A stretch of 22,951 nt of DNA from Parvularia atlantis (Eukaryota > Opisthokonta > Rotosphaerida), in assembly GCA_943704415.1 (NCBI GenBank), contig CALSCO010000471.1:1-22951 (forward strand), given 5' to 3'. The notes beneath the pieces were generated by a model. That model worked only from the letters and a program-made list of their open reading frames with translations, was not told the origin of the DNA and did no database searches. The position numbers were made by a program, and so were the translations under genes. How positions within the stretch are numbered: position 1 is the stretch's first letter; each line of letters starts with the position of its first letter. This document shows, in pieces, positions 1 through 22,308 of the stretch.

Positions 1-19
1 CTCCCCTGGCGCCACGCAC

Positions 20-731
20 GATGGTCGTGCCGCGCGATGCACCGGTCGCACCACGCGCAGTGCTTGGACCGCGCTGGCTTGCCGGTCTTGCACGTGTCAC
101 ATACGGCGCCCGGGCGGTAGAGCACGTAGTCGGGCCGGTAGACTTCGAGCAGGCCGGCGACGTTGTGCGGCGTGACCGTGCCCGGGTCGACCAGGCACGC
201 GGCCGCGTACAGCCCGAGCATGAGCGCGAGGATGATCGGGACGATAACGACGTGCACGGGCGAGGTGTAGGTCGCACGCCACACGTGCGGCCACGCCGTC
301 GTCGCAAAGATGCCGAGCGCGCCCGAGACCAGGGCCATGTAGAACAGCTGCAGCAGCGGGTTGGGCCGCAGGAAGACCCACGTGCCCGTGCTCTCGATCA
401 CCTCGCTCGCACGCACGCCCAGCACCCGCCGCGACACCGCGCGCACCGTCACCGGTAGCGTCGTCGTCATCCACACAAACGCGCGCCCCACGAGCCCGCC
501 GCGTGCCACGTCCTGTGCGCTAGCGGGTCAGAGCTGGGGTTGAGCGCACGCGCACGCGCACGCGCACGCGGATGCCCGCGCCCAACGCACCGACGGCCCG
601 CAAAGCATCAGCACTAGCACCGCCGTGCCGACCAGCAGCAGACCCGCCGCGACCTGGTGCGCGTGCGGCGGCCGAATCAGCGCGCGGCGCGGCGGCACCC
701 GCGCGCCACGCACCACGAGCGCGATGAGCAT
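20..731 (-). CDS. DHHC-type protein S-acyltransferase, SWF1/ZDHHC4-like (partial; continues past left edge)
   Basis: Exons 591-731 and 20-512, with an intron at 513-590 (CTGAC branch, CACAG acceptor). The ATG is at 731. The product is a multi-pass membrane enzyme that transfers palmitate to cysteines. Hydrophobic stretches sit near the start (AAGLLLVGTAVLVLML), around LLYMALVSGALGIF, and around VVIVPIILALMLGLY, just before the family's DPG motif. The zinc-binding core CDTCKTGKPARSKHC and then CDRCIARHDH are clear. The reading breaks at a GTGCGTG donor right after 'DH' plus one base, so the next exon, beyond the left edge, should finish the catalytic DHHC. The 'LYRPG..C.TC...KPARSKHC' spacing is typical of SWF1/ZDHHC4; I infer ER/Golgi location from that. 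The start codon lies 24 bp from that of SMG9 on the other strand. Confidence 0.88.
543..571. repeat. CGCACG tandem repeat inside DHHC gene intron 1
   Basis: About four copies of a GCGCAC/CGCACG hexamer lie within intron 513-590. No other role is visible. Confidence 0.75.
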
Positions 732-1925: not shown

Positions 1926-4684
1926 TACCGCCGCGCCGCGCGCTGCTGGTCCTCCTTGACCTCGCGTGTGCGCCTTGTCACGTCCTGCAGCCGCGCACGT
2001 CAGCACTGGCGCACACGCGCACCAACGCGCACAGGCACCTGCAGCCGTGACTGCAGCTGCGCCGCTGTCTCGTCGATGTACTGCAGCGTGGCCAGATGCG
2101 CGTTGAGCACCTGCATGATCTGCGTCACCTGCGGTGGCGTACGTGAGTGACCGGCCCGTGCGCTCGTGGTAACGACCGTGCGCACCGGGTTGTCGTCACG
2201 CGGCGCCTGGTTGATCTTGCGCGTGATCGTCTCGAGCGACTCGCCCATCTCGTCCACCTCCTTGTTGAGCTTCTCCGCAAGCGTGTAGCTGCGGCCACAG
2301 TCAGCCCGCGTCGCCCACACAGCCCGCACGTGCGCACAATCGCTCTCGTTCCTCATCGGCCGCGTGCGCCGGCGGGTTCTGCGCGATCATCTGCGTGCGA
2401 CCGTGCCGTCAGTGCGGAGGTTGCGCGCGCTGACAAGCACGCACCTCATTCACGCTCTTCTCGAGCGACTCCAGCTGCTCGCTCAGGTCCGTCTGCTGAG
2501 AGTCGATGTACGTGAGCGTGTCGTCAACTTCTTGCTGCTGGCGCTGCACGTCCGTGACGTCTGCCACGAGCGCGACGATCTGCGGCGGGTTGGCCTTCAG
2601 GCGCACCGTGCACGCGCGCGCGCCACACCTTCTCGCCATTCTCGATGATCGCACGGTCCCGCTGCGCGACCTGCTTGGCCTGCTCGCGGAACGCCTTGAC
2701 GTGGCCGTCGAGCTCGGCGTTCCACTTGTTCAGCACGTCCTCGACCGTCTTGGCCTTGAGCGCGGCGCTGGCGTTATCGGTCGCGGGCTTGGAGGCAGCT
2801 GTTGCTGTTGCGGCCGACGCTGCGGCGGCTGTCGTCGCAGCCGGTGCGGTGGCGCTGGGTGTGCCGAAGCTGAAGCCGCCTGGAGCCGCTGTGCCAGTCA
2901 ACACTGCCGGTGTCGGTGTCGCCGTCGCTGCCGGTGTCGTGGTCGCAGCGGGTGCCGCTGTTGCGGTAAGCGCAGCGGAGGACGCGGCCGTGGCTGCGGC
3001 GGGTGTGCCAAACGAAAAGCCGGGCGCACTGCCGCTCGGAGCCGCCGCAGGTATGGCGGACGCAGCCGTTGTTGCGGTCGAAGTCGCAGCGGGAGCGCCA
3101 AAGGAAAAGCCGGGCGCAGCAGCCGCTGTCGCCGTTGCAACGGGGGTCGTGGTCGCAGCCGGGATCGTGGTCGCAGCCGGGGTCGTGGTCGCTGCTGGTG
3201 CGCCGAACGAGAAGCCGGGCGCGGCAGCAGGTGTCACCGCAGCCGGTGCCGCGGTCGCTGCCGGTGCCGCGGTCGCCGCGGGAGCACCGAAAGAGAAGCC
3301 GGGCGCACCGCCACTTGGCGCCGCCGTCGCGGCGGGGGTCGTGGCCGCAGCGGAAGCGCCAAAGGAAAAGCCAGGCGCCGCACCGCCAGCGGCCGGCTTG
3401 GTCGGCGCAGACGCGACAGCTGCGCCTGTGCCTACATCACGTCAGCTGCATCGACAAAGGGAGCACGCGCACACACCCGGGTGGTCAGCCGTGCATGACG
3501 CGCACTTGGTCAGCTCGGGACTATTGTGCGAGAGGCAGGTCGTGCACTGCCACCTGCGAACGCGACAGCACCAGGTCAGCTGCAGCACAGATGCGACGGG
3601 CGCACGCACTTGTCGCCCGTCGACGCCTTGGCTGGCGCCCTGTGCATGTGTCGTCAGTGGCCGCGATCGCGCCGCGAGCAGCCACGTACGCCTTGGCCGG
3701 GTCAGCGGGTGTGAACGAGAAACCGCTCGCTGGTGCGGTGCCAGGCTTGCTAGCGGGTGCGCCAAAGATCGGTGCCGCCGTCGGCGCCGCAGCCTGGCCC
3801 GGGGTCGCGCCAAACGTCGGCGCCGCAGCCTGGCCCGGGGCTGCGCCAAACGTCGGCGCCGCAGCCTGGCTCGGGGCTGCGCCAAACGTCGGCGTCGCTG
3901 GCTTCGCAGCCGCCTGCGCTTGCTGGCTGGCGCCAAACGCTGGACCGGCTGGCTGACCAGCGGCAGGCGCACTGAAGCCAAAGGCAGGCTTGGCCGCAGC
4001 GGCCGCCTGAGGCTGTTGCTGCGCGGCGCCGCCCAACGTGAAGCCTGCGCCACCACCAAAGGCCGGCGCCGCTGCCGTGCCCGCCGGCGCGCCAAAGCCA
4101 GCTGCGGGCTTAGCTTGCTGGCTGGGCACGGTAAAGCCGCCGCCGAAAGCGGGTGCGGCCGCCGAACCCGTCTGCGCCCCAAATGCGCTTGTGCCGGTAG
4201 CGGGCTTGGCCGCCTGCTGGGTACCGGAGCCAGACGGCTGAGCACCGAAGCCGGTCGAGGCGGGCTGTGTGCCAAAGCCAGTCGGGGCGGGCTGCGTGCC
4301 AAAGCCAGTCGGGGCGGGCTGAGCGCCGAAGCCAGTCGGGGCGGGCTGAGCGCCGAAGCCAGTCGGGGCGGGCTGAGCATTGAAGCCGGTCGTCTGCTGA
4401 GCTCCGCCAAAGCCGGTCGGAGCGGGTTGAGCGCCGAAGCCGGTCGGAGCGGGCTGAGCATTGAAGCCGGTCGTCTGCTGAGCACCGCCAAAGCCGGTCG
4501 GAGCGGGCTGAGCGCCGAAGCCGGTCGAGGCGGGCTGCGTGCCAAAGCCGCTCGCTGGAGGACCCCCGCCAAAGCCAGCCGGGGGCGCGGCCTGCTGACC
4601 GAAGCTGGTGAAGGAGAAGCCTGTGCACGCGCCGTCAGCCCGCGGTCGACCGCGCTCGCTCCTGTACGCACCTGGTGCAGCCAT
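1922..4684 (-). CDS. NSP1: NSP1/Nup62-type FG nucleoporin with an internal RanBP2-type zinc finger
   Basis: Ten exons: 4672-4684, 3690-4620, 3610-3639, 3477-3553, 2629-3425, 2445-2579, 2338-2390, 2186-2288, 2039-2128 and 1922-1984, giving 763 residues in phase. Nsp1/Nup62 anchors the central-channel FG nucleoporins of the nuclear pore. Residues 1-320 are FG repeats (TGFGAQPAP units, then PTFGAAPGQ units, then GFSF). Residues 326-348 are a zinc finger, W-x-C-x2-C-x3-N-x6-C-x2-C, closest in style to Nup153. Residues 351-575 are GFSFGAP-type repeats. From about 575 to the end is the Nsp1_C coiled coil: VLNKWNAEL, IIENGEK, DEERERFYTLAEK and ILNAHxxxLQ-type residues (QVLNAHLATLQYID). Exon 1 holds only 13 coding bases. 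The start is 26 bp from that of the methyltransferase gene. Confidence 0.9.
4240..4560. repeat. 27-bp coding repeats of NSP1 FG region
   Basis: Tandem, slightly varied units encode TGFGAQPAP / TGFGTQPAS / TGFNAQPAP on the minus strand. Further looser FG units (PTFGAAPGQ) run from about 3770 to 3900. They form part of the disordered FG domain that binds transport receptors. Confidence 0.85.
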
Positions 4685-4710: not shown

Positions 4711-7700
4711 ATGGGGCCACGTGGCGGACGCGTCGTGCTCGACCTGCTCCGTGCCCACGGCGTGCGACCGCGCGCCCTGGTCGACGAGCTGCTGGCGCGC
4801 GTCGATGCAAGCACGGCTTACACGATCGCAGAGGTGCTGGCCGGCATGGGCAGCGACGACGCCGAGGCGATGGAGGTGCGCCCCGGCACACACAGCTCAG
4901 CGCGCCTGACCCTCGCACCCCTCCTAGGTCGCGCTCGAGGTCTACCGCCGGGGCGTGCTGCCGCAGCTGCGCGGAGGCGACAGCGATGTGGCGCGCATCC
5001 GTGCGTGCACCCTCAAACCGTGATGCGCCCACCTCTAAGTGCACCGCAGTGCTCCAGGCGATCGTGCCGCAGACAACGTCCCCGGTCGACGGCCGCCTCG
5101 GCGCCGAGGTCGTGGCTGACGCCGTCGCGATGCTGCGCGAGCTCGCCAGCAACACCCCGATCGGCTCGGCTGACCGGTGCGCGCTGCTGTACCCGCGTGC
5201 CCATCGCCAACCCGCTCGCAGCTTTGGCCTTGAGCCGCTGTGGACGCCCGATCTCGGCTGCGCGCTCGTCCGCAGCATCGGCACGGTCCTGGTCGTCGAC
5301 AACTGCGCCGCGCTGGTGCACATGCCGCTCCTGCGGCGCTGTCGACGTACCAACCCACGCTCGCGCTACAGACGCCCGCGCTCGTTGAGCGCATCGCCGA
5401 GGCGATGTTTGCCGCAATCGAGAGCGACGCCGGCCCCGTGCGGCGCCTCTGCATCGACGTGCTCCTGCCGCAGCTCTTCGTCTGGGACGCCCAGCACGGC
5501 CTCGGCCGGCGGCGCGACTGGGCCGAGGTGCGGCGGGATCAGTTGGTGCCGTGAGCTGAGACGCGCGCACATGACAAGCGGCTCTGGGAGCTCGTCAAGC
5601 AGCTGCTGCGGTTGCACGCAGAGCTGCGCGAGGACGCGTACGGCATCTTGGCACGCCTGGTCGACGCCGCGGCGGCCGCGATCGATTTGCGCCTGGACCA
5701 GGACTTTTTCACGATTGTGCAGCAAGGCCTGGAGGGCGTCGGCGGCGCCCTCGCAAACAAACGGAGCACCTACGCGCTGCGCCGCGTCATCCAGCTCAGC
5801 GGCGACCTCACCCTTGCTGTCAACGCAGACTTGGACAGTAAGCCGTGGACGCGGTACTTCTGCTGGAGTGCCGCACAGGCCAAGCAGCTGACGCACCTCT
5901 GGAACGCCTTCTTCACGCTGTGCGACACCCTGGACCAGTCGAGCGTACACCTGGTCAAGGTGGGCGCTCCGTGTCGGTGCACGCACGGGTGCTGACACGC
6001 CACAACCAGGCGGTCTGGGGCGAGCTCGAGTGCATCATGCTCGGCACGCCGGCGCTGGACGCGTCGTGGTGGGCGCTGCTCCTGCGCAAGGTGGGCGCTG
6101 GCCGCTGCCCGCGCTCGTGCCTGATAGCAGCGCTAGGGCATGACGCACGACCCGACCATACGGCGCTTCGTGCTGCACCGTGTGCTCGAGTCGACGAGCG
6201 AGCCGTTCCTGCGCAAGCTGTCCGACGACGCCTCCTGGGAGCTGGTCTTTGCGCCGCTCCTCGCCGCGTGCAACGAGGCCGCGCTTTACAAGACCATCGG
6301 CTTCAGCGCAATCTCGGCCATGGGCGAGCTCCTTGTGTCGTTCCTGCACCGCACGCACGCGGCGCTGGTCAACGCGGACGCCCAAATCGTGTTCCTCCGC
6401 CGCGTTCTGCGCTCGGCCGCCGTGCACCACTACCACAGCACGCTCATGATCCACGTGCTCCAGTTTCTGACTGAGGCCGTACCGACGTCCGGGCACTCCC
6501 ACTTTCTCGACAAGGCCGACATCAACCTCGTCGTCGACATCGACGCCGGCTTCTTCAACGAGCGGTGCGCAGCCAGCCAGTCGCTCATGTTCATGCTCAT
6601 GCTCATGCGATCTACAGCGCCACAGCGAAGCGCGGGCTCATTCGCTGGTATCTGCTGTCGCTCGTCATCTCGCGTTCAGACGCCCCCGCGCTCGACTTTG
6701 ACACCGTCGCACTGTACGCGTGTCGCGCGTGTCCCGCGTGCGCGCAGGCCGGCTGACCCCGCACGGCCCCGGCAGGCTGCTGCACCAGCTGTACGAGCCC
6801 GAGCTGCTGGCGCTGCCAGACGGCGCGCTTGCGCAGCCCGTGCGGTCGTGGCTCCGAGCGGCGCCGTTGGCGGTGCGCTGCGGCATGCACGCAATGTCCT
6901 GTTTACATGCCGCCGCAGGATGCTCTCGCCGAGGAGGCACGCCGGGTGCTGCAGACGGACACGGCCGCGCTGTCCAGCGATGGTGCGCGCCGGTTCGTTC
7001 TCGATCTCGTGCGCTGCGCTCACGCCGCCCGCGTTGCAGACATGACCTTTGACCGCGCCTGCGAGCGCCTGAACCGCCTGTGCGCCTTTGCAAGCGCCGA
7101 CAGCCCGGCGATCCAGGGACTGCGGTCGGAGCTGTGGCAGCAGGTGGACGCGTGGACCGCGCAAGGGTTGGCGGCGCCGCTCGAGACGCCCGCGCTGGCT
7201 GTGCTCGCGGCGATGGACGCGTGCAACGGATCGACTTCGGCGAGCCTGTTGCGCACGATCGGCGAGCGCTGCTCGTCGTCGTGGGCACGCGTGGACGTTG
7301 CAGACGCGGGGCCATCGGTGCTGCGGACGATGCGAACGATCTGGCGCTTTGCGCGTGTCTGCAACGCTCTCGTGAGCGCAACGCCCGCGGATGCCTTGCG
7401 TGCGGACGACGTGAGCGACTGGGCGCGGTCAACGGCGAGCGCGTGCCGAGCGCAGCTGGACGCGCTGCACCCAGCGACGTCGGCCGTGGCGCGGCAAGTG
7501 CAGCTCGTGTGCACCACGACCGTCGCGGCGGTCGCTGTTGCCGCCCTCGCCAGCGGCCGCGGCGTGCACGCGCTCGGTGACGAGCACGCGGCTCTGGTGC
7601 AGTCGCTGCTGCAAGCGCGCATCGTCCGGCCGCATGACGCGACCCTCAACCAGTTGCGTGAGCTCGCGCATGACCGTGAATGAAAAACTGACGCCGGCAC

Positions 7701-10700
7701 GGCAGCCCGGAATGGCACGCACTTGTCGAGCGCTTCCAAGCGGACAAGTGGGCCGCGCTCGAGCAGCTGGTCGCACAGGTAGCTGGCGCCCTGCCGCCGT
7801 CGCTCATGGTGCGCGTCGCCCGTGCGGCCTGCCCGCGGCTGACGCTCTCGCGCGGCCCAGGACGCCCTGCGCACCGTGTGGGCCGGCAGTGTCGAGGCGC
7901 TGTCCATGGTCGCGGCGACCGAGTGCGGCCCCGTGCTGAGGGTCATGGAGCGCTGCGCGGCCGTGGGCGTGCCCGCCGACCTGCTCACGGTCGATGATGT
8001 GCGCGCGGCACTGCAGGCACCATCCGGGCGCTGCTAGTGCTGACTCGCCACACGCCGCAGCTGCACGACGCCTGCTCGGCCGTGTGGGCGCTCGTGCGCG
8101 AGCTGTGGGACTACCAGGCACCGAGCACAGCCCTCCTGACCGCGGTGGCACCGGTCGTCTTTGCACCGGTACTCTTCCGCCACCACCCGGCCTTCCACGC
8201 GCCGGACGGGCCGCTACAGACGGTGTGCGCCGCGCGGTGCCAGCGTGATCGCTCAACGTGCTCGCAGCTCCTCGCCAAGGTGCTCAAGGCCGGCGAGGGC
8301 CGCGCGCACATTCTCGCGGTCGTCGCGCGCCACTTCCACCGCGTCTGGACCGACGACGAGACCCTCCCGGCATTCGAGCACTACCTGCCCGCGGTGGTCG
8401 AGATGCTGCTGTTTGGACCGTGCAAGTGCGCCCCTCGCGCGCGCGCGCGCGCTCGTGCGTGCTCGCGCGCGCCCGCGCTGACCTCGTACAGGACCCCGCG
8501 GCGGAGTGACTTTGTGGCGGCGGAGCTGCTGGACGAGGAGACGCGCACGGGCCCGAGCGAGGAGCAGACGGCGCAGTCGATCGCGATGGACCGCGAGGGC
8601 ATCGTGCGCGCCTACATGAACGCTCTCCTGGCGCACCTGCGGCCGGGCGTGGCGCGCCATGTCGAGTGCGGCCTGATGGTGCTCAACCGCCTGCTGTACG
8701 GCAAGCACGCAACCACGAGCGCGCGCGGCGTCTTTGACAACACGCCCGAGCATCGCCGGCGGGTGCGCGGTCCGCTTCTGGCCCGCTTCTGGCGTCGATC
8801 GAGCACGGAAGGCCCACTCAGGCCGCGCGCAGATGCGGCTGTGGCAGTCAGTGCTGGTGCTGCTGCCCCTCGAGCGCGACGCGGAGCAGCTGCGGCGCAT
8901 CGTCGAGCGCTGCTTCCAGTACCTGATTACGCAGGAGCACTCGATCAGGTGCGGCCCCTTCTCGCCTTGCCAGCGCACAGCTCACGGCCAGCGCGCGCAG
9001 CGTGCGCTACCTAATCGAGTTTGTCATTGTGCGCTGTGTCTGCGCCGAGCCCAGCCTCGCGAGCGGGTCTTTCCTGATGTGCGCTCTGCTCGCCGCGCAG
9101 TCATGGTGTGCGTGAGACTGATCCACGCACGGGCGCGGCGCAGCCACTGGCGCGATTTCAACGAGCGCGCGGCCGTGATGTGCTCGATGGGGTCGATGAC
9201 GCTCATTATCGGGCGCAGCCTGCGGGCCCAGGCGCAGGCGACGTTTCTGCAGGAGGCGATCCCGCTGATGCTGCCGTGGGGCGTGTGCAACCACTACAAC
9301 GTGCGCCTGATGGCCGTCGTCACCTGCCAAAAGCTGTGCGAGATTGCGCAGACGGTCACAGTCGCGCCGCGGTGCGTCCACCCGTGGATGCGGTGCGCCG
9401 CTGACCGCGGTCGGCAGCGAGATGGAGGCAGCGGTCGCGTCCAACGTCTACCTGGGCTTTGTCAACGACAACCTTGAGTACCAGCGGCACCGCGAGAAGC
9501 TCGAGGAGGAGTTTTTCTTCGACCGCTTTGACCTGCAGCGCGACTACAGCTGGCAGTTTGTCTTCCACGACGTGCTCGTGATCACCAACGTGGCGCAGGA
9601 CGACGCCATCGGTGCGGTGCGTGCCGTCGGTGGGGTGGGTGGTTGCCGCCTCGCTGACCCGTGCTGAACAGGACATCTTCCACCTGATCGACCCGCGCCC
9701 GCCCACGTTCCTCAACGGCCAGGTGTTGTCGGCGGCGGCACAAGCATCGCGCCTGCGCGGCCAGTGCGTCGCGCGGCCTACGCTTTGGACGTGCGAGGAA
9801 GCTGACTTTTCGGCACGCAGCTACAAGATCGACGTGCGCCATATCCGCAGCAAGCCGTGGCTCGAGGGGGACGCAGACCCGGTTACCGAGCAGCCGCCTG
9901 CGCTGGCAGGGCTATCGCCTGCAATGGCCGCGCCGCAGCGGACGGATGAGGGCGAGGGGCAGGCGCACAACTACCAACGCAAGATCCAGCCCTGGGAGCA
10001 GCTGCTGTCGAGCGACACGGAGGTGACGCGCGAGACCGTGCACGTGCGCCGCAACAGTCAACCTGCGCGCGAGTCGTTCACGCGCCCGTCGGCAGACGCG
10101 CCAGCGGCACGAGCTGATCGTGGTCGCGTCGCTGCTGGACAAGCTGCCCAACCTGGGCGGGATCTGCCGCACGTGCGAGATCTTCAACGCCTCGAAGCTT
10201 GTCCTGGCCGACACGCGCGTGCGTGAGTCGCGCGTGTGCCGTTTGCACGCCGGTTCGCTCACGCACGGCGACGGACAGGTCGTCGACAACCCGCAGTTTA
10301 AGAACGTTAGCGTCACGGCCGAGAACTGGCTCCCGATCGAGGAGGTGCAGGCCGACCGGCTCGAGCCGTACCTGCGCGGGCTACAGGCGCAGGGCTACCG
10401 TGTGCTGGGTGTGGAGCAGACGGCCAACAGTGTCAGCCTCGAGTCGTACGTCTTCCCGGCCAAGACCGTGCTCGTGCTTGGTGCGGCGCGCAGCGTTCCA
10501 AGAGCCGGTTGCTCACGCACACGACCCACAGGGCGCGAGAAGGAGGGCATCCCTGTCGAGCTGATCCAGCTGCTCGACGCGTGCATCGAGATCCCGCAGT
10601 TTGGCCTCCTGCGGTGCGTCTGCTGGTGCGATGCGCGAGGCTTGACTTCTTTAGTCGGCATCGTCAGGTCGCTCAACGTGCACGTCAGCGGCGCCATCCT

Positions 10701-10746
10701 CGTGTGGGAGTACACCCGGCAGCGGCTTCTTCGGTCGCGTTCGTAG
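4711..10746 (+). CDS. TRM3: TARBP1/Trm3-type tRNA (guanosine-18-2'-O)-methyltransferase
   Basis: I model 24 exons and about 1583 residues (human TARBP1 has 1621). Introns: 4876-4927, 5001-5049, 5316-5371, 5528-5578, 5960-6009, 6091-6136, 6565-6617, 6720-6775, 6873-6918, 7658-7740 (uncertain), 7809-7860, 7999-8060, 8223-8267, 8420-8491, 8763-8832, 8949-9000, 9079-9143, 9372-9417, 9617-9671, 10038-10095, 10219-10278, 10481-10531, 10614-10667. The enzyme 2'-O-methylates G18 of the tRNA D-loop using S-adenosylmethionine. The last 160 or so residues are a SpoU fold: motif 1 LPNLGGICRTCEIF, motif 2 VLGREKEGIP, motif 3 IPQFGLLRSLNVHVSGAI. The long N-terminal part is a helical, repeat-like array, weakly conserved as in the family. 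At 7658-7740 no ordinary splice keeps frame with the likely continuation PEWHALVERF. Confidence 0.88.
8433..8452. repeat. Alternating GC tract inside TRM3 intron 8420-8491
   Basis: A run of alternating C and G, able in principle to form Z-DNA, placed wholly in an intron. A similar shorter run occurs at about 17509-17521, inside RNF141-like intron 17477-17524. Confidence 0.8.
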
Positions 10747-10805: not shown

Positions 10806-13800
10806 TCAACTCACGCGCTCGACAATGTCGCCAGCGAGCACGCGCATGGCCGTGAGCAGGGACGCGGCGCGCGGCGCAACACGGCCAGTGTCGCCCGGCT
10901 GCACGGGCTCCATGGCGTAGGCGTGCGCGACCTGTCGCACGGCGTCACCACGCGCGGTCCGCGCCAGACGGGGCGCACCTTGAACGGCTGTGCGTCAAAC
11001 ACGGCCGGGCGCCACTTGACGGCGATCACGTTGCTGCCGTACGTGTCATGGAAAAACAGCGCCAGATGCCCAAACTCGCGCTGCGTGCATGGCCGCGTTA
11101 ACCCGAAGCAGCACCACGCACAAGCACGCACGCGCAGGTCGCGCAGCAGCTGATCGACCGGGTCAAACGCTACCAGCGGCATCGACGTCACGCGCGCGGC
11201 GCGCAGATTCTTGAACACGGCACCGCTGCCCACCGCCGCGTTAGCTGCAAGCGCCAGCGTGCTGCGGTGCGCACCCGTACGCGCCGCTCTCGAGCCACGC
11301 CGCCGCGCCGACGGCCCCGCACGCGCGCGGGTTGCTGGCGTTGCGCAAGTGCAGCAGCGCGTCGTACTCATCCAGCGGCGTGACAAAGAGCGACTGCCGA
11401 GCGGGTGAGCACGCTGTGCACGCGCGTCTGTTGCCGTGCGCGCACCCCGTAGTCAAACTGCCAGAGCGAGAATAGGCCACTCGCGAGCCGCTCGATGCCA
11501 GCCTGCGACGCGACGCGTCAGAAAGGGCGGACAGCGGTCTCGCATCGTAAAGCACACCCGTGCAAACTCGCGCGCGCGCCGCAGCACGACGGCAGACGGG
11601 CGCTCGCCACTCCACACGGTCCCCGTCTCGTCGTAGCTTGAGAGCGCCATCACCACCGGCCCGCCCTTGCGCGCGCGCGCCAGGGCGCATGAGCGCGCAC
11701 CACCCACCGCCACTGGCTGCTGCGGGCGCACCTTTCGGCCATTTGGGTCGACCGCCGCGCGCACGCGATCAAACGTCTTTGCAAAGCGGTCGCGGTCGGC
11801 CGCCGTGAGGTCACCGGTCCAGTCGGCGACAATGGGGCTGGCAGCAAACACGCGTCAGCAGCGCACGCACACCTGCTGCGACACGACGCGCCTCGTCGCA
11901 AAGTCGTGCCGTGCCAGCAGCTCGAGCGTGCGATGAAACCCGGCGAGGCCCGACGCTGGCGGCGTGTAGAGCGGCGCGGGTGGGACAAACACGTGCGCGA
12001 CCAGGCACTCGACCAGCTGCGACACACGCGTCAGCAAGGCGCTGCAATCCGTTGCGTGGCACACCTCGAGCGACACGTCGTCCGCGAGCAGGTGCACGGC
12101 AAGCCAGCGATGCGTGATGCGCACGGCGGGCGCGTAGAAGACGTGCCGCTGCGCAAACGCGCGCACGCTGCCCGCGTGCCGCACCGTGTGCTCGTACATC
12201 GACTTGAGCTGCGCGCGGGGCGGGCATCAGCACGTGAAGCGCGCCTCAGGCGCAAAGCGCACCTCGGCAAGCTCGTGTTGGCCGGCCTCGTCGTGTCGCT
12301 GCTGCTCGAGGAGCGCCAGCCGGCGTGGCACATGGATGCGAAAGCGGAAGACAAAGCCGTCGCGCAGCACGTCAAGCCACTCAGCCGTGGCCTCGCACAC
12401 GGCGTCCGCGTGGGCCTCGCTGCGAGCGCTCTGTTGTCAGCGCGACCGTGCGCCCCTTGCACCGTGCAGCTCACCGGAGCAGCTTGGCCAGGCGGAGGTA
12501 CATCGCAGCGAGCGCGTGCACGATCGCTTCGAGATCGTCAGGCCACGCCGTCGTGTGCTCGACCTGCGCGGCCGAGGCTTCAGCGGGGACAGAGCCGTCC
12601 AGTCACAACCGTGTCGCGCACCTGCATCACCGCCTCGTGCACGGGCGTGTACGGCGGCAGCGAGAGCGTTGAATCTTCGGCAGACGGCTTGGGCGGGAAC
12701 GCGGCAAAGTCGAGCGCAGGCGCGCCAAAGACGGCCGTGCCGCGCAGTCCGGCCGAGACGCCGTGCACGGCGACTATGTCGAGCGGGAAGCCATCGAGCG
12801 CCTGTGCACGCGTGAGCTGGCGCGCTCAGGGGCCGCGTGCCCAGGCCGCACCTTGAGCTGCGCTGTGATCGTCTCAAAGGCGGCCGAGATGGGCGCGGGC
12901 GACTTGGTCACGAGCGGCGGCGCAAAGCGCAGCTTTTGCGGCAGGCGAACGAGCGCGTCGGCCTGGTTGACGAGGTAGACCGGCGCGGCGTCAGTGAGTG
13001 GGGCGCTGCTGGCCGCGTCGACGATGCCGCTGTCGGGTGCAAAGTGGATCGCTGGACAGCGGAGGGGTCAGGCGCAAACAGCACAATACCTCGCTCGAGG
13101 CGACGCACCAAAGTGCCGCTGGAGCAGCCACGCGACCATCTTGGGCACAATCAAGTGGCGATCGCTCGCGGCGACAGCAAACGTCACGGCCTGGTGAGAG
13201 CCGATGCGGGTCGTGAGTACTTGCGCGCATGCTCGCACGGGCGCACACCTCGGCAATGGTGCCGTCTTTGAACCGGCGCAACTCGCTCTTCGATCCCCAG
13301 AGCGACTGGAAGCGCGTGACGGCGTCGGCCTGCAGCAGCGATCGGAAGCGCGTCAGTCGCGGTCGCAGACGCGCACGTCCAGGGCCGGCGCACATCCTCG
13401 GGCGACGGGCCGAGCTCGACGAGACGCAGCGCCTCGGCCGCGTTCAGCACGAGCCCGATGGTCAGGCTGCGTCTCTCAGCTGCCTCGCCGAGCTCGTACG
13501 CTGGCGGAGGCTGCGCGATGCTCCACGGCGTAATGTTGGACGTGTACACGCGCGCGACGCGGAGCCTGACGGCGGCGCAAGGCGGTGAGCGAACAGCGCA
13601 CATGGGTATCACGCACCGGTCGCCCAGGCCGCGCAGCAAGATGCGCGGGATGTTGCGCTGCGCACGCACGTATGCGTCGAGAAAGTCGGGGTGTGCCGTG
13701 CGGAAGGGCAGGTCGGGACGGGTCGCGGCGTCGTCGTCCGACAGGCGCGGAATGCTGCCGCAGCCCGCGGCTCAGTGTGTGCGTGTGCACCGGTCAAGCC

Positions 13801-15821
13801 GCTCGTACCTCACGACGTGGTCAAACTGCAACAGCTGGCTCTTCTTGTGCAGGAACAGCGCGGGGAACGGGTCAGCACCGGTGCTGTCGCCGAGCGCCGC
13901 AAAGCTGATCTGCGCCTCGTGTTGCAGCTGCGCAGCAAGCAGGTCAGCGCCACCGGTGCCACGATGGGACCGAGGCAAGCGTGCCTCGGAGAGCGCGCCC
14001 TTGCTCACGCGCGCGAGCAGGTTGATCTGGTTGTCGACGTCGAGCAGGACGGCATCGTACGCCGAGTGATGCGCCGCAAGCGTGGCCGCATCAGGAGCAG
14101 GCCCGTTGAAGTGCATGCTGTCCTGCTCGAAGCGATACGTCGCTAGCACCGACGGTATGAGCGGCGCTTCCGAGAGCTGGCAGCGCGCACCGAGCGTGCC
14201 GAGCGTGGCCTTGAACAGCTGGTATGACGACATGTGCTTGCTCAGGCGGTGCTGCTGCACGAGCGCGAGCATGATCATCGACAGCAAAAAGCCGTCGACC
14301 TGGCCCTGCGCCTGCGACATGTTGCGCTGGTACAGCCACACCTTGCCGAGCACGATGGCGTGCCGGAAACTGTGCGCACCATCGTTAGGTCAGCACCTCA
14401 CGCGCATGCGCTCACGCAAGCCGCACCCTGCCACCGCGCCGCACATCGCGTGCAGCTGCGCCAGGTGCGACGTAAAGTGCATGTCCTCGAGCACGCCGTG
14501 GTTGTAGAGCGGCGTCGGCACGGCTGAGTGGTGGTGTGTCAGTCGCGCACGCCTTGCGCAGCGCACTGCACACCCTTCTTCTCGTCCGAAAAGTGCGCTC
14601 GCACGCCGTTGCGCGTCGGACCAAGGCGGTCGAGGCTGCGTTGCCCTCAGCGACAGACACGCTCGGCACCAACAGCCGCAGATGCGCACCTGAACACGCC
14701 CGCCGGCAGCATCGGCAGCACGCGCACGACAAAGCCAGACTTGGCGCTCGGCGGCTGCAGCACCGCGACCGGCTTGCTCACGTCGCCGTTGAGCGCCGCG
14801 AAGGTCACGTCGGCCGTCTCGGCGTGCTGCGACAGCGCGGCCACGAGCGTGGCCAGGAAGAAGGCGCGCTTGTGGTGGTAGCGGTAGTTCATGTGGTCCT
14901 TTGGCTGAAACAGGCTCTGCGTGCGTGGGCGTTAGCATCGCGCGTGGGTGCCGCGCACGAGGCGAGAGCACACGGCAGGCATCGTCACGGCCAGGTTGAC
15001 ATTGAGCACGGGCTTGGCGTACGTCTGGAGCAGGAACGACCCAACAACGTGGACGGCTGTGTGCGCGGCCGTGAGCTCAGAGAGATGCAGGCAGACGGGC
15101 GCGGCCACACCGGCTGGCGGCTCAAAGGCAACCTTGAGGTTGCTGACCTCGTCGGGGCGGTAGAACGGCCACACGACGCCGCGTTGCCGCAGCTCGTCGT
15201 ACGCGGCCACCACGGGCTGCGGCGGCGAGGGCTCAAGCTCGCCGACAATGTCCTTGAGGCGGTGCAGGAAGCGCTTGAGCACTTCGAGCTGGCGCTCGGG
15301 CACGCGCATCTCGCTCAGGAGCTCGTCCATCTGCCGACGCCAACGATGTCACGCACATGTGCCGCCAGGCAACGCGCACCTGCAGCTTGAACACGTTCGA
15401 GCGGAAGAGCTCCTCGGTCTCGCGCAGCGTGCGCAGCTCGTCGCTCGTCGGCACCTTGTAGTACTTGCTGCTCTTTTGCGCTGGCTGGTCTGTCGGCGCA
15501 TTTGCCAGTACATCGTCTGCAGCGTCTGTTGGCGCGTGTGCCAGTGCGTCTGCTCCGTCGTCGTCCGCTCCGTCGTCGTCCGCTCCGTCGTCGTCCGCTC
15601 CGTCGTCGTCCGCTCCGTCGTCGTCCGCTCCGTCGTCGTCCGCTCCGTCGTCTTCGACAAAGTCCTCCGCGGGTGCAGCCTCGGGCACGTGCTCCGACTC
15701 GGCCGCACGCGCACGCTGCAGCGACGCTCGTCAGCGCACAGCAGGCGCAGCAGGCGCAGCAGGCGCAGACCTTGACGACGCGCACGCTCGGCGCAGCCAC
15801 GTGGCGCTTGACCGCGGGCAT
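10806..15821 (-). CDS. UTP22: UTP22/NOL6 (Nrap) small-subunit processome protein
   Basis: I model 25 exons and 1245 residues (human NOL6 has 1146). Introns: 10932-10978, 11081-11131, 11226-11274, 11394-11445, 11503-11557, 11666-11731, 11838-11870, 12017-12064, 12209-12262, 12420-12474, 12564-12621, 12802-12851, 13052-13108, 13191-13248, 13330-13393, 13566-13616, 13755-13790, 13928-13984 (GC-AG), 14370-14426, 14524-14573, 14636-14689, 14917-14973, 15331-15379, 15716-15785. It acts in the nucleolus on early 18S rRNA precursors, in a module with Rrp7. Family landmarks in order: KYYKVPTSDELRTLRETEEL, VVGSFLLQTYAKP, KDHMNYRYHHKRAFFL, LGKVWLYQR, LWGSKSELRRFKDGTIAE, LDGFPLDIVAV, VLRDGFVFRFRI, VRITHRWLAVHLL, FGHLALFFHDTYGSNVIAVKW. 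An acidic repeat lies near the N-terminus. The 11666-11731 intron (AAG acceptor) is the least certain. Confidence 0.9.
15552..15656. repeat. 15-bp coding minisatellite, 7 copies, in UTP22 exon 2
   Basis: Six perfect copies and one variant of the unit GCTCCGTCGTCGTCC. Read on the minus strand it encodes a GADDD-type acidic repeat in the N-terminal tail of UTP22. The unit is a multiple of three, so copy changes keep frame. Likely polymorphic. Confidence 0.9.
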
Positions 15822-15841: not shown

Positions 15842-17092
15842 ATGTGGGTCACGGTCGCAGTCCGAGTGGCCGCGACGGCCTCCGCGCCCACGCACTGCCT
15901 GTTTGTGCGACGGCACGAAGCGCGCGGCGAGGAGCAGGGCGACGAGACCCCGGTGCGTGGCCACTTTCTGCGCGCAACACGAGACTCACGCAGCCCAAGG
16001 CCGACCGGACGCTCTTCGTCGCAAATCTGCCTGTCACGACGACCGAGGCCGGCCTGCGCGCGCTCTTCGGGGGCCTGCTGGGGCCGGTCGAGGCCGTGCG
16101 GTGCGCGACGTGTGCACGCAGGCGTGGTGCGGCGTGCTTGCTGACACGCGCGTGCGCGCGTGAGAGCAGGTTCACCGCGCTGAAGACGCCGCTGGACGCG
16201 CTCCCGGTGTCGACGCCCGTCGTGCGCGAGCTGCTCGGTGCGGGCTGCGTGCCCGCGCTCGTGGGGATGCTTAGGCAGTGCGCGGTGCAGGGTTGCCGGC
16301 AGGACCAGTGCCACACGGGCCGGGCGCGGCTGCGTACGTCGTGCTCGAGCAAGCCGGTGCGTTGGCGCAGTCGCTTGCGCCGCGCCGCCTCAACAGCGCA
16401 TCGGCGCAGTCACGCCTCAGCAGCTCAAGGCACTTGGGCGGACGCAGGGCCGCGCACCGTCGCTGCTGGTGGACGACTTGTTTGGGACACGCGGTGCGCA
16501 GCCAGGGCGAGCGGCATGAGGCACCGCTAGTGCTCACGTTGCCGCTAGCGTACCTGCGCACGTACGAGGCGCTGCGGCCGGACGAGGACACGTTGAGCGC
16601 GCGTGTAGACGAGCTAATGGGCGAGTTTGAGTTTGCGGAGCGCGAGGTGCCCGTGCACCCTCCCTGGATGCTGAACGGCGCCACTCACGCGCACGCTACT
16701 GCAGACGCGTAAGCGGCTTGTCCGCGAGGAGGTCGGCCCGGACGCGGACGGGTTTGTGCCGGTCACGCGGCGGACCAAGCACGCGCGCACGGGCACGGAG
16801 CGCACGGGCATGGTCGCGGCGGCGAGCACCCGTAGCGCGCTGCGTGCGGGGACTGAGGCCGGCAAGAAGAAGAAGAAGAAGAAGGGCACGGCGCTCCTGC
16901 CGGACTTTTACCGCTTCCAGATGCGCGAGGCCAAGCGCAACGGTGCGCTATCGTGCTGGCCGGCGGCTGAGATCAACGGTGGTGGCCCGTGTGCGCGCGC
17001 GCGCAGACATTGCCGAGCTGCGGCGCAAGTTTGAGGAGGACAAGGCCAAGATCGCGCAGATGAAGGCCGCGCGCAAGTTTGTCGTGGCCTGA
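15842..17092 (+). CDS. RRP7: RRP7 ribosomal RNA-processing protein
   Basis: Exons 15842-15952, 15994-16100, 16170-16237, 16279-16356, 16410-16493, 16531-16646, 16705-16942 and 17007-17092 give 295 residues (human RRP7A has 280). It is needed for 18S rRNA maturation and partners Utp22 in yeast. The N-terminus HCLFVRRHE matches 'HYLYVRPHE'. A divergent RRM follows with RNP2 LFVANL and RNP1-like AAYVVLEQA. The C-terminal RRP7 domain runs DADGFVPVTRR, LLPDFYRFQMREAKRN, then ELRRKFEEDKAKI and KAARKF, nearly the human ending. A run of seven lysines precedes it. The intron starting at 16238 has several frame-compatible acceptors (16278, 16290, 16302, 16308). The intron at 16494-16530 is only 37 bp. 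Confidence 0.9.
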
Positions 17093-17160: not shown

Positions 17161-18197
17161 TCATTGCGGCAGCAGCTCGAGCATGCGGTGCACGTCCGCG
17201 GCCATCTGGCGAGCGCGTGGCGGGCGTGAGCGCGTCCGGCGGGCATGACGCGCCGCGGCCGCACCTCGGACGGCGTCGGCGTCTCGGTCAGGACCCAGCT
17301 GTCGGTCGCCGAGCACCCGTCGCGGCGGCAGACGGGGCACTGCATCGCGCGCTGTCACGGGACAGGCCAAGCCGGTCGTCGCGCACAGAGACGCACCTGG
17401 TCGGACGACAGCATCCACGTCGTGATGCACTGCTCGCAGTAGGCGTGCGAGCACGGCAGGCTGATGTTGGCGCGTGCTGGCTTGCGCGTGAGGGGTGGGC
17501 GCGCGAGAGCGCGCGCGCGCGCACCGGCCATGCAGATGATGCACTCGGCGTCGTCGTAGTCAGCGGCGCTCGCAGCGTCAGCACCGGGGGCGCTGCGTGC
17601 GGTCGCCACCGTCAGACACACACACACACACACACACACCGTGACGGCGTGCTTGCGCAATATCGCGTGTGTGCACTCAAAGGTCTTGAGGAAGCTCGAG
17701 CCGAGCAGCGCGGACGGGTTGAGTGCGCCCGACGACGCGCTCATCAGGTCCTGCAGCCGAAAGTAGAGTCGGTAGAACAGCACGAGGGTGAGCTCGCGCT
17801 GGCCGACGACGCTGTGGTCGCGGTCGACCTGGTGCGCGCGCGACGCGTGAGCGCGATGGATCGCTTGCCACGCGGCGCGGGCACTTTCTGGCACAGCACG
17901 CGCGCCGACAGCAGCAGCGCAAAGAGTGGCGCGGGCCGCCCGGGCTGCTGCTGCGGCGCCGTGCCCTCCTTGAGCTTGAAGTAGAGCGTGTGCCCGTCGT
18001 GGTCGGCGAACGCCTCGGCGCTGGTCGCGACAACGACAACGGCGGTCAGTGCATGCCGGCGCGGCGGGCGCACGCGGGCGCGCACGCACGCACATCTCAG
18101 ACGCGTGCACCAGCTCGGCCGCGAGATCGTCCGTGTTGCGCGCGAGCACGTGCTGCGCCACGCGCACGTCCTGTCCGCGCGACACGCGCTGCCCCAT
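17161..18197 (-). CDS. RNF141-like RING E3 ubiquitin ligase, predicted N-myristoylated
   Basis: Exons 18094-18197, 17885-18020, 17638-17828, 17525-17592, 17397-17476, 17265-17339 and 17161-17205 give 232 residues; human RNF141 has 230. The start MGQRVS matches human MGQQIS and fits an N-myristoylation signal (MGxxxS). Then come AQHVLARNTDDLAAEL, LYFKLKEG, the SARVLCQK strand and FYRLYFRLQDL, in the same order as RNF141. The C3HC4 RING spans about residues 161-197: CIIC, LPCSHAYCEQC, CPVC. The tail DSWVLTETPTPSEMAADV matches human ESWVVSDAPTEDDMANYI. It probably transfers ubiquitin at a membrane; the substrate is unknown. The donor of intron 3 lies inside a (GT)12 run. The start is 20 bp from that of the next gene on the other strand. 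Confidence 0.85.
17616..17639. repeat. (AC)12 microsatellite at the 5' splice site of RNF141-like intron 3
   Basis: Twelve AC dinucleotides on the plus strand, so (GT)12 on the coding strand. The modelled donor (intron 17593-17637) lies at its coding-strand start; every GT in the run is a possible donor. Confidence 0.9.
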
Positions 18198-20218: not shown

Positions 20219-22308
20219 ATGCTCCTTGAGCTGCTCACGCAGGCCGCGTGGGCCGCGGCCGTGGTGCTGCTGGCCCTGGCGGCCGTCCGGCTCGTGCAGC
20301 ACGCGCTGTGGTGCCGCGGTTTCGAGGGCGTGCTCGCGGCGCCGGCGTCGCCGTGGGCGCACGTCTCCCTCGTCGGCCCGATAGTCCAGGGCATGCGGCG
20401 CGGCGACATAATGGCACCGCTGCTGGACGCGGCCAAGGGCGGGCCCGTGACGGCTGTGTGGATCATGGGCCAGCCGCTGGTCTTTGTGACGTCGCTGGAG
20501 CTGATGAAGAGCATCGTGCAGAGCGGTGCGCGCGCCGAGACGTGCTGTGGGGGGCGGCTGATCACCTCGTGCAGGCATCAACGGCTACAACAGTCCGCAC
20601 ACGTTTGTGCGCTCGGAGCGGCAGGTGTCACAGATGCGCGAAGTGTGCGTCGGTCGTGCGCGCGCTGGCCAGGCACGACGCTGACCCATCCGACAGCTTT
20701 GGCAAGTCGCTGCTGTTCACGCAGGGCAAGGACTGGCGCTGGCGCCGCAACACGATCATGCCGTTCTTCCAGCCGCGTGTGCTCAACCGCGTGGCCGAGC
20801 CGGCCGTGGCCTTGTTTACGACCGAGCTGTTGCGGACGCTGCGCACGACCGCGGCCGCGTCGACCGGCGGCGTGACCGTGCTCGACGTCGACGGCATCTT
20901 TGTCGAGCTGACGTGCAAGATCATCACAGCGATCCTGCTCGGGGCGGACTTTGACTGGACGCGCACGCCCGTGGGCAGCGCGCGGCACGTGTGTATGCGT
21001 CGGCGCCGGACGGGACGGGCGAGCTGACGCGGCGCGCCCAGGCGGTCGAGTGCGTCACGCGGATCAACGACGTGGCTATCGGGCGCCAGAGCGTGGGCGC
21101 GCTGCAAGTGCCGTTCATGGCATCGAACGCTGAGCGCTATAAGGCCCTGCTCACGGCGTCGCTTGCGCCCGTCGTCAAGCAGATGTGCGTGTGTGTGTTC
21201 TTTTCTTTGGTGGTGGTGGTGGGGCGGTGGCGCGGTGGCTGAGCTTGCCGCGCGTCGGGCGCACGGGGTGACCACGGCACGTCGGGTTGATCGCACGCTG
21301 CAGCCGCGTCAACCTGGCGAGTGCAAGTTCGTCGAGCGAAACCGACTGCCTGCTGGAGCACCTGGCGCGCAACAACGAGTTTACAGACGAAAACCTGGTC
21401 AACGAGGCGATCGCGATGCTGCTCGCCGGTGCGCCGCAGCAGGTAGCCGCAACCCACGGCCGCACGCTGACGCCGCGCAGGCACCGAGACGACGGCGCAC
21501 ACCATGTCGTTCGCGCTGCACGAGCTGAGCAAGCAGCCGGCGCTGCTGCAGCGTCTGCACGATGAGGCAGTGCAGGTGAGAGCGCGCACGTGCCTGTGCG
21601 CAGCGCTTATGGGGCGCCTGTCCAGGTCTTTGGCGACGCGGACGACAGCGGCGCTGCCGTGGACCTGTCAGCGTCGCACCTGGCCAAGCTGTCGTACGCG
21701 GGCTGCGTCTTCAAGGAGACGCTGCGGTGCGGCCGGACCCTCGCGTCGCATGCATACGCCTGACGTCCGTGTGCAGGCTGTACCCGAGCGTGGGCATGAT
21801 GATTGTGCGCGCGATCCAGCCGGCCCAGCTGGGCGAGCACCTGATCCCTGCCGGGACCGACGTGATCCTGAACGTGCGCGGTGCGTGTGCCTCTGCCAGC
21901 GTCCCACCGAGGCCGCGCTCACGGCAGGGCCAGGCATCCTGCGCGACGAGAACCAGTTCCCCGTGCCCGAGGCGTTCCGCCCCGAGCGGTGGTCGCTCAA
22001 CACGGAGGACGTACTCGACGGCGCGAAACAGGCCATTCCGGAGGTGTGGTTCAACCTCGGTGCGCACCAGGTACGCACGTGCGCACGCACGCACGCAGCA
22101 GCAACTGCGGCCAACAGCCCGCCCGCTATCGCAGTGCGCCGGGCGCGCGCTCGCCCTGACCGAGGCCAAGGCGGTCCTGGCGCTGATCGCGCGCGAGTTT
22201 GCCGTCGAGCCGTGCGAGAAGGACTACCGCCCCGTGCTCGTCAACAACGGCCTGGTCAAGCCCAAGGCGGGGCTGACGGTCGCGCTGCGTCTGCGGCGAC
22301 GTGTGTAG
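20219..22308 (+). CDS. Cytochrome P450 monooxygenase (membrane-anchored)
   Basis: Exons 20219-20525, 20575-20644, 20697-20988, 21042-21184, 21304-21428, 21481-21575, 21626-21726, 21777-21880, 21928-22070 and 22135-22308 give 517 residues, the usual size. The N-terminal helix AAWAAAVVLLALAAV should anchor it in the ER. The C-helix WxxxR is present (DWRWRRNTIMP). The I-helix oxygen-binding motif is AGTETTAHT near residue 312, the K-helix is KETLR near 374-378, and FRPERW is the PERF region. The heme loop FNLGAHQCAG is split by an intron exactly before the ligand Cys461. All hallmark residues are present, so it should be an active oxidase. The substrate and CYP family cannot be told from sequence alone. 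It follows the EGF-like gene by 68 bp on the same strand. Confidence 0.93.

Follow-up and report, generated by a model that had tools for sequence, protein, structure and literature searches.

The window, a stretch of DNA of 22,951 bases (G+C 69%) that was analysed as a whole, carries on its minus strand (4684 to 1922) a gene whose product is, by its predicted domains, a Nup62/Nsp1 protein. This channel nucleoporin would have one RanBP2-type zinc finger between two FG regions, and the finger most likely binds Ran, as its similarity to known fingers suggests; taken as a whole we regard this reading as probable, with room for doubt.

Domain Architecture of the Nucleoporin

The predicted protein of 763 residues begins with MAAPG, encoded by exon 1 (4672–4684, with the start codon ATG at 4684), and continues with a first FG region (exon 2, 3690–4620), in which 22 FG dipeptides, in motifs of the types TGFG, PAFG, PTFG and similar, are found in residues 1–310. 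A linker exon of 30 nt (exon 3, 3610–3639; APAKASTGDK) leads to exon 4 (3477–3553), whose 77 bases, read from 3553 to 3477, translate as K-WQCTTCLSHNSPELTKCASCTADHPG and contain the single zinc finger (residues 326–345, WQCTTCLSHNSPELTKCASC). The second FG region, with six FSFG motifs in residues 353–560, lies after the finger and before the Nup62/Nsp1 coiled coil, which starts in the same exon (exon 5, 2629–3425) and extends through exon 6 (2445–2579), exon 7 (2338–2390), exon 8 (2186–2288) and exon 9 (2039–2128) to exon 10 (1922–1984), where the protein ends with QQRAARRY and the stop codon. An earlier note on this DNA had claimed a RanBP2-type finger embedded in an NSP1/Nup62 nucleoporin, and both parts are indeed recognized by Pfam in one spliced protein: the finger matches PF00641 with 30.3 bits in the whole protein (E 2.5e-07; 35.7 bits as a 56-residue piece; cut-off 27), and the coiled coil matches Nsp1_C (PF05064) with 93.1 bits at residues 562–669 (cut-off 24.1). 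Besides Nsp1_C and Zn_ribbon_RanBP no Pfam family matches the protein at E up to 0.01, and the other domains of Nup153 and Nup358 are absent.

The identity of the coiled coil is supported by the PDB, where residues 7–200 of a 202-residue query align to residues 323–518 of human Nup62 (p62) chain 5ijn_H with 115 bits, followed by frog Nup62 (110.9 bits) and by Nsp1 of 5cws (110.3 bits) and 7tbi (109.8 bits), with the 823-residue NSP1 of 7n85 reaching 53.7 bits. The coiled coil thus scores about equally with human Nup62 and with Nsp1 of 5cws, that of Chaetomium. As in Nup62 of animals and Nsp1 of fungi, FG repeats precede the Nsp1_C coiled coil, and the difference from both is the RanBP2-type finger between two FG regions. 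Furthermore, the second FG region contains one Lys/Arg and no Asp/Glu in 208 residues, unlike yeast Nsp1, where the FSFG region is charge-rich.

Relatives of the Zinc Finger

The pattern W-x-C-x2-C-x3-N-x6-C-x2-C, uninterrupted by a stop, occurs a single time when all six frames of the window are read, and in none of 300 second-order Markov windows. When the 56-residue finger piece was compared with the PDB by phmmer, 42 distinct sequences matched at E up to 1, among them fingers of both Nup153 and Nup358. Nup358 chains head the list by a score summed over six to eight fingers, with approximately 8–15 bits each, whereas the best nine one-finger chains are all from Nup153 (22.8–30.9 bits), in agreement with the resemblance to Nup153 fingers that had been suggested earlier. 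The next one-finger chains are ZRANB1/TRABID (22.7 bits), Nup153 of 7mo1 (22.1 bits), MDM4 and TAB2 (21.2 bits each), followed by single RanBP2 finger chains (16.5–20.7 bits), which are interspersed with further Nup153 and TAB2 chains, and by lower matches to ZRANB2 (14.6 bits) and RBM5 (13.6 bits). Five of the 14 one-finger Nup153 chains (18.5–22.1 bits) and all six one-finger RanBP2 chains fall below ZRANB1. By this comparison the Nup153 fingers appear to be the nearest among solved structures, with a modest separation from other RanBP2-type fingers.

The tryptophan, the asparagine and the four cysteines of the finger are identical in all of the 16 Nup358 and Nup153 fingers (14 of them distinct) that were compared position by position. 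With these fingers it shares 7–10 of 20 positions, six of which are the fixed W, N and four C, and the distinct Nup fingers share 6–17 positions among themselves (median nine). The spacing, the W and the N are thus those of Nup153 and Nup358 of animals, as is the context of an FG nucleoporin; the differences are that one finger is present, compared with four in Nup153 and eight in human Nup358, that it is placed in a channel nucleoporin, and that Leu-Ser is found where the animal fingers have Leu-Val. An AlphaFold model of 42 residues, comprising the finger and intron read-through on both flanks and computed without relatives, is of low confidence (mean pLDDT 63.4, pTM 0.34) and forms no part of the argument.

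Possible Origin and Distribution of the Fusion

The finger marks the transition from FG motifs of the GFG, PxFG and related types to FSFG, a position that fits insertion between two older FG regions or the junction of two FG genes. Exon shuffling as a symmetric module is unsupported in its simple form, since the introns on either side of the finger exon differ in phase (2 and 1).

The finger may also be old or lineage-wide in the Nup62/Nsp1 proteins of this group and already present in public protein databases, for which we see little short of an even prospect and which is compatible with the other readings considered here. The sequence collections that were searched are viral, prokaryotic and plasmid and leave room for such a distribution: no relatives of the coiled coil were found in viral, prokaryotic and plasmid sequences, nor any of the finger with its flanks or of the neighboring SpoU methylase exon in viral contigs, results that are uninformative for eukaryotes. 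Against a wide distribution, none of the 42 finger matches in the PDB (E up to 1) is a Nup62/Nsp1 chain, although the PDB includes such chains of 522, 547, 709 and 823 residues. Searches for Nsp1 together with a RanBP2-type finger or zf-RanBP likewise returned no such fusion from the literature covered, which includes few papers from subscription journals, and a eukaryote-wide survey of Nup62 makes no mention of a zinc finger in its main text (PMC2951903). The fusion is also undescribed in the accessible parts of further papers (PMC8421043; PMC13242641; PMC4758718; PMC11825100; PMC9132428; PMC7154859; PMC7072944; PMC8778642).

Predicted Function of the Finger

RanBP2-type fingers have ubiquitin and RNA as well as Ran among their ligands, and the residues next to the conserved positions bear on which of these is to be expected. 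The pair after the second cysteine, Leu-Val in Nup153 and Nup358 fingers, is what we take to be the contact with Ran, whereas ubiquitin-binding NZF fingers have Thr-Phe/Tyr at this place, and RNA-binding fingers of the ZRANB2 type have an Arg pair after the conserved Asn. The finger of the window has Leu-Ser after the second cysteine, and SPELTK follows its Asn, such that neither the ubiquitin pair nor the Arg pair is present. Among the 16 Nup358 and Nup153 fingers the first position is Leu in 10 and the second is Val in 13, while Ser occurs there in none. The earlier suggestion of Ran binding is upheld only in part, as one residue of the presumed contact pair differs, with Ser in place of Val. 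Ran binding would still be the likeliest function, although with one finger alone it may be weak.

In the mechanism that we propose, the coiled coil would hold the protein both in the Nup62-Nup58-Nup54 (Nsp1-Nup49-Nup57) channel complex and in the Nup88/Nup214 (Nup82/Nup159) cytoplasmic complex, and the finger would hang from a flexible FG tether, within the channel as well as at its cytoplasmic opening. A review places Nsp1/Nup62 in the inner ring as well as in the cytoplasmic Nup82/Nup88 complex and states that Nup153 fingers are able to bind RanGDP (PMC13242641). As these do, the tethered finger would bind Ran, chiefly RanGDP, and by raising the local Ran concentration it might help Ran to recycle to the nucleus or assist receptor release.

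A doubtful though real possibility is that the fusion exists but the finger does not bind Ran, and instead has a karyopherin, ubiquitin or RNA as its partner, or serves as a structural spacer or is a degenerate remnant. RanBP2-type fingers have many partners according to one paper, which also cites work in which the finger cluster of RanBP2 docks exportin-1 (PMC7154859); the Ser at the second presumed contact position would suit this alternative, as would the fact that the ZRANB1, MDM4 and TAB2 fingers outscore single RanBP2 fingers in the PDB. A remnant is unlikely, since the four cysteines, the Trp and the Asn are all intact. Furthermore, the two residue pairs that we associate with ubiquitin and with RNA are missing, and the top one-finger matches in the PDB are those of Nup153.

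A loose parallel to a Ran-binding finger in such a setting is offered by TbNup149 of Trypanosoma, in which the fingers are of another kind. TbNup149 is described as a nucleoporin that combines zinc fingers with a few FG motifs; it belongs to a complex equivalent to yeast Nup82/Nup159/Nsp1 and is labelled by Ran proximity, but its fingers are said to have no obvious homology to those of Nup153/Nup358, and the protein has no detectable structural homology to Nsp1/Nup62 (PMC11825100).

Gene Structure and Splicing

The gene model was built from sequence alone and comprises ten exons and nine introns, with a coding sequence of 2,292 nt whose sole stop is the terminal one. The introns are 49 to 57 nt long, all nine start with GT and end with CAG, and in seven of them, including all three that flank the finger region, a CTGAC lies 11 to 21 nt before the AG. 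These three introns and the 77-base exon were recovered at the positions proposed in the earlier note: intron 2 (3640–3689; 50 nt, phase 2; GTACGT..CACAG, CTGAC 13 nt before the AG), intron 3 (3554–3609; 56 nt, phase 2; GTGCGT..CGCAG, CTGAC 21 nt before the AG) and intron 4 (3426–3476; 51 nt, phase 1; GTGTGT..CACAG, CTGAC 15 nt before the AG). Their phases of 2, 2 and 1 join the first FG exon, the 30-nt exon, the finger exon and the second FG exon in one frame, such that the phase consistency claimed for them holds as well. Upstream lies intron 1 (4621–4671; 51 nt, phase 1; GTGCGT..CACAG, CTGAC 13 nt before the AG). The coding sequence of the coiled coil is interrupted by intron 5 (2580–2628; 49 nt, phase 0; CGCAG end, without CTGAC), intron 6 (2391–2444; 54 nt, phase 0; GTGCGT..CGCAG, CTGAC 17 nt before the AG), intron 7 (2289–2337; 49 nt, phase 2; GTGCGC..CGCAG, CTGAC 11 nt before the AG), intron 8 (2129–2185; 57 nt, phase 0; GTGCGC..CGCAG, without CTGAC) and intron 9 (1985–2038; 54 nt, phase 0; GTGCCT..TGCAG, CTGAC 14 nt before the AG).

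The pattern GTRNG..CTGAC..YAG with a length of 40–65 nt was counted 32 times on one strand of the window and 23 times on the other, with nested versions of one intron among these counts, whereas 100 first-order Markov sequences derived from the minus strand contain it 5.7 times on average and 15 times at most; the excess indicates that this intron form is a habit of this genome. For the coiled coil, a frameshift or an intron of 34 nt was considered and dropped in favor of the 49-nt intron 2628–2580, because with the latter Nsp1_C scores 93.1 bits, compared with 83.7 bits for the 34-nt intron, and the best PDB match scores 115 instead of 104.5 bits. The model with the 34-nt intron, which was used for the virus, prokaryote and plasmid searches with the coiled coil, is longer by five residues (ANPPQ) that begin at residue 617; before this point the numbering is identical in both models.

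Around the finger, 14 splicing outcomes were worked through with both models of the coiled-coil intron, namely the fully spliced form, seven forms with retained introns, three with a skipped exon and three with alternative sites. The first FG region is joined to the coiled coil in three of them (the fully spliced form, the one without the 30-nt exon, and one in which the last acceptor is shifted by 6 nt), and all three contain the finger; skipping of the finger exon shifts the frame. In this set of splice forms, the frame is carried into the coiled coil only when the finger exon is included. Methionines are present in the spliced protein at residues 1, 662, 693 and 718 only, and none occurs in the ORF (2524–3441, 305 residues) that gives the second FG region its frame. 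This region consequently lacks an ATG start of its own, and a second gene starting between residues 1 and 662 is unlikely. The earlier view of a single gene is supported by this logic of frame and start codons. It is very improbable that the splice model is wrong and that two genes are present, one for an FG protein that stops near 3521 and a downstream Nsp1-like gene, with the finger outside the mature protein: read-through of introns 3689–3640 and 3609–3554 does leave the FG frame open to a stop at 3521, and retention of both would yield an FG protein of 370 residues, but besides the missing start codons and the frame broken by a finger-exon skip, the introns of the finger region share the form of the gene's other introns, and the first FG exon has two GTRNG donors, of which the one at 3972 alone agrees in phase with the acceptor at 3426 and would require a bypassing intron of 547 nt, roughly ten times as long as the others.

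Within the finger exon, a donor-like site (GTGCGC) is found on the minus strand at 3505. Splicing from this site would delete the second Cys pair and disrupt the frame, and it is possibly a regulated off-switch or simply noise.

Neighboring Genes

The stretch 5555–10746 (plus strand, the nucleoporin gene being on the minus strand) is likely a Trm3/TARBP1 tRNA methyltransferase gene, judged by a SpoU methylase domain (75.1 bits) and a weak TARBP1 match (20.5 bits, below the cut-off of 27). Domains D2, D3 and D5 of Nrap/NOL6 (Utp22) are encoded at 11453–14389 (minus strand), near an RRP7 domain at 16631–17092 (plus strand); Nrap/NOL6 (Utp22) and RRP7 are partners in one ribosome-assembly complex. 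The one PDB match of an Nrap exon is Nucleolar protein 6. An open frame at 15233–15730 (minus strand) with an acidic repeat (DDGA seven times in tandem) could encode a low-complexity N-terminal part of the Nrap protein, or may not be a gene. At 17639–17593 (minus strand) an intron-like stretch begins with a long run of GT dinucleotides, followed by CTGAC and a GCAG end, and lies in a frame that has a RING finger match. A cytochrome P450 gene of several exons lies at 20230–22308 (plus strand), the first part of which has no match in the PDB at E up to 0.01, and at the window edge (3–527, minus strand) a DHHC palmitoyltransferase match of 33.7 bits covers only the first part of the domain. Neither Rfam matches at gathering score nor tRNAs (ARAGORN) were found in the window. 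The density of genes, the short introns and the neighbors Nrap/NOL6, RRP7 and the TARBP1-type SpoU methylase suggest a compact eukaryotic genome, perhaps that of a fungus, a weak indication given the near-equal scores of the coiled coil with human Nup62 and with Nsp1 of 5cws.

Significance

Nup358 is regarded as metazoan- or vertebrate-specific (PMC4758718, PMC9132428), and Ran-binding fingers are assigned to Nup358 and Nup153 (PMC13242641, PMC11825100), in the parts of these sources that were available. It is conceivable, though rather unlikely, that the Ran docking of animal Nup153/Nup358 has been moved into the channel nucleoporin, where every copy of Nsp1 would keep Ran tethered by FG sequence inside the permeability barrier, and this may compensate for Nup153/Nup358 fingers that were lost or never acquired. 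The extra finger in the main channel protein suggests a Ran docking site inside the channel, and a natural finger amid the channel FG domain would permit a direct test of whether Ran held in the barrier alters the rate or direction of transport. The fusion would further show that the domain make-up is changeable even in a widely conserved channel nucleoporin.
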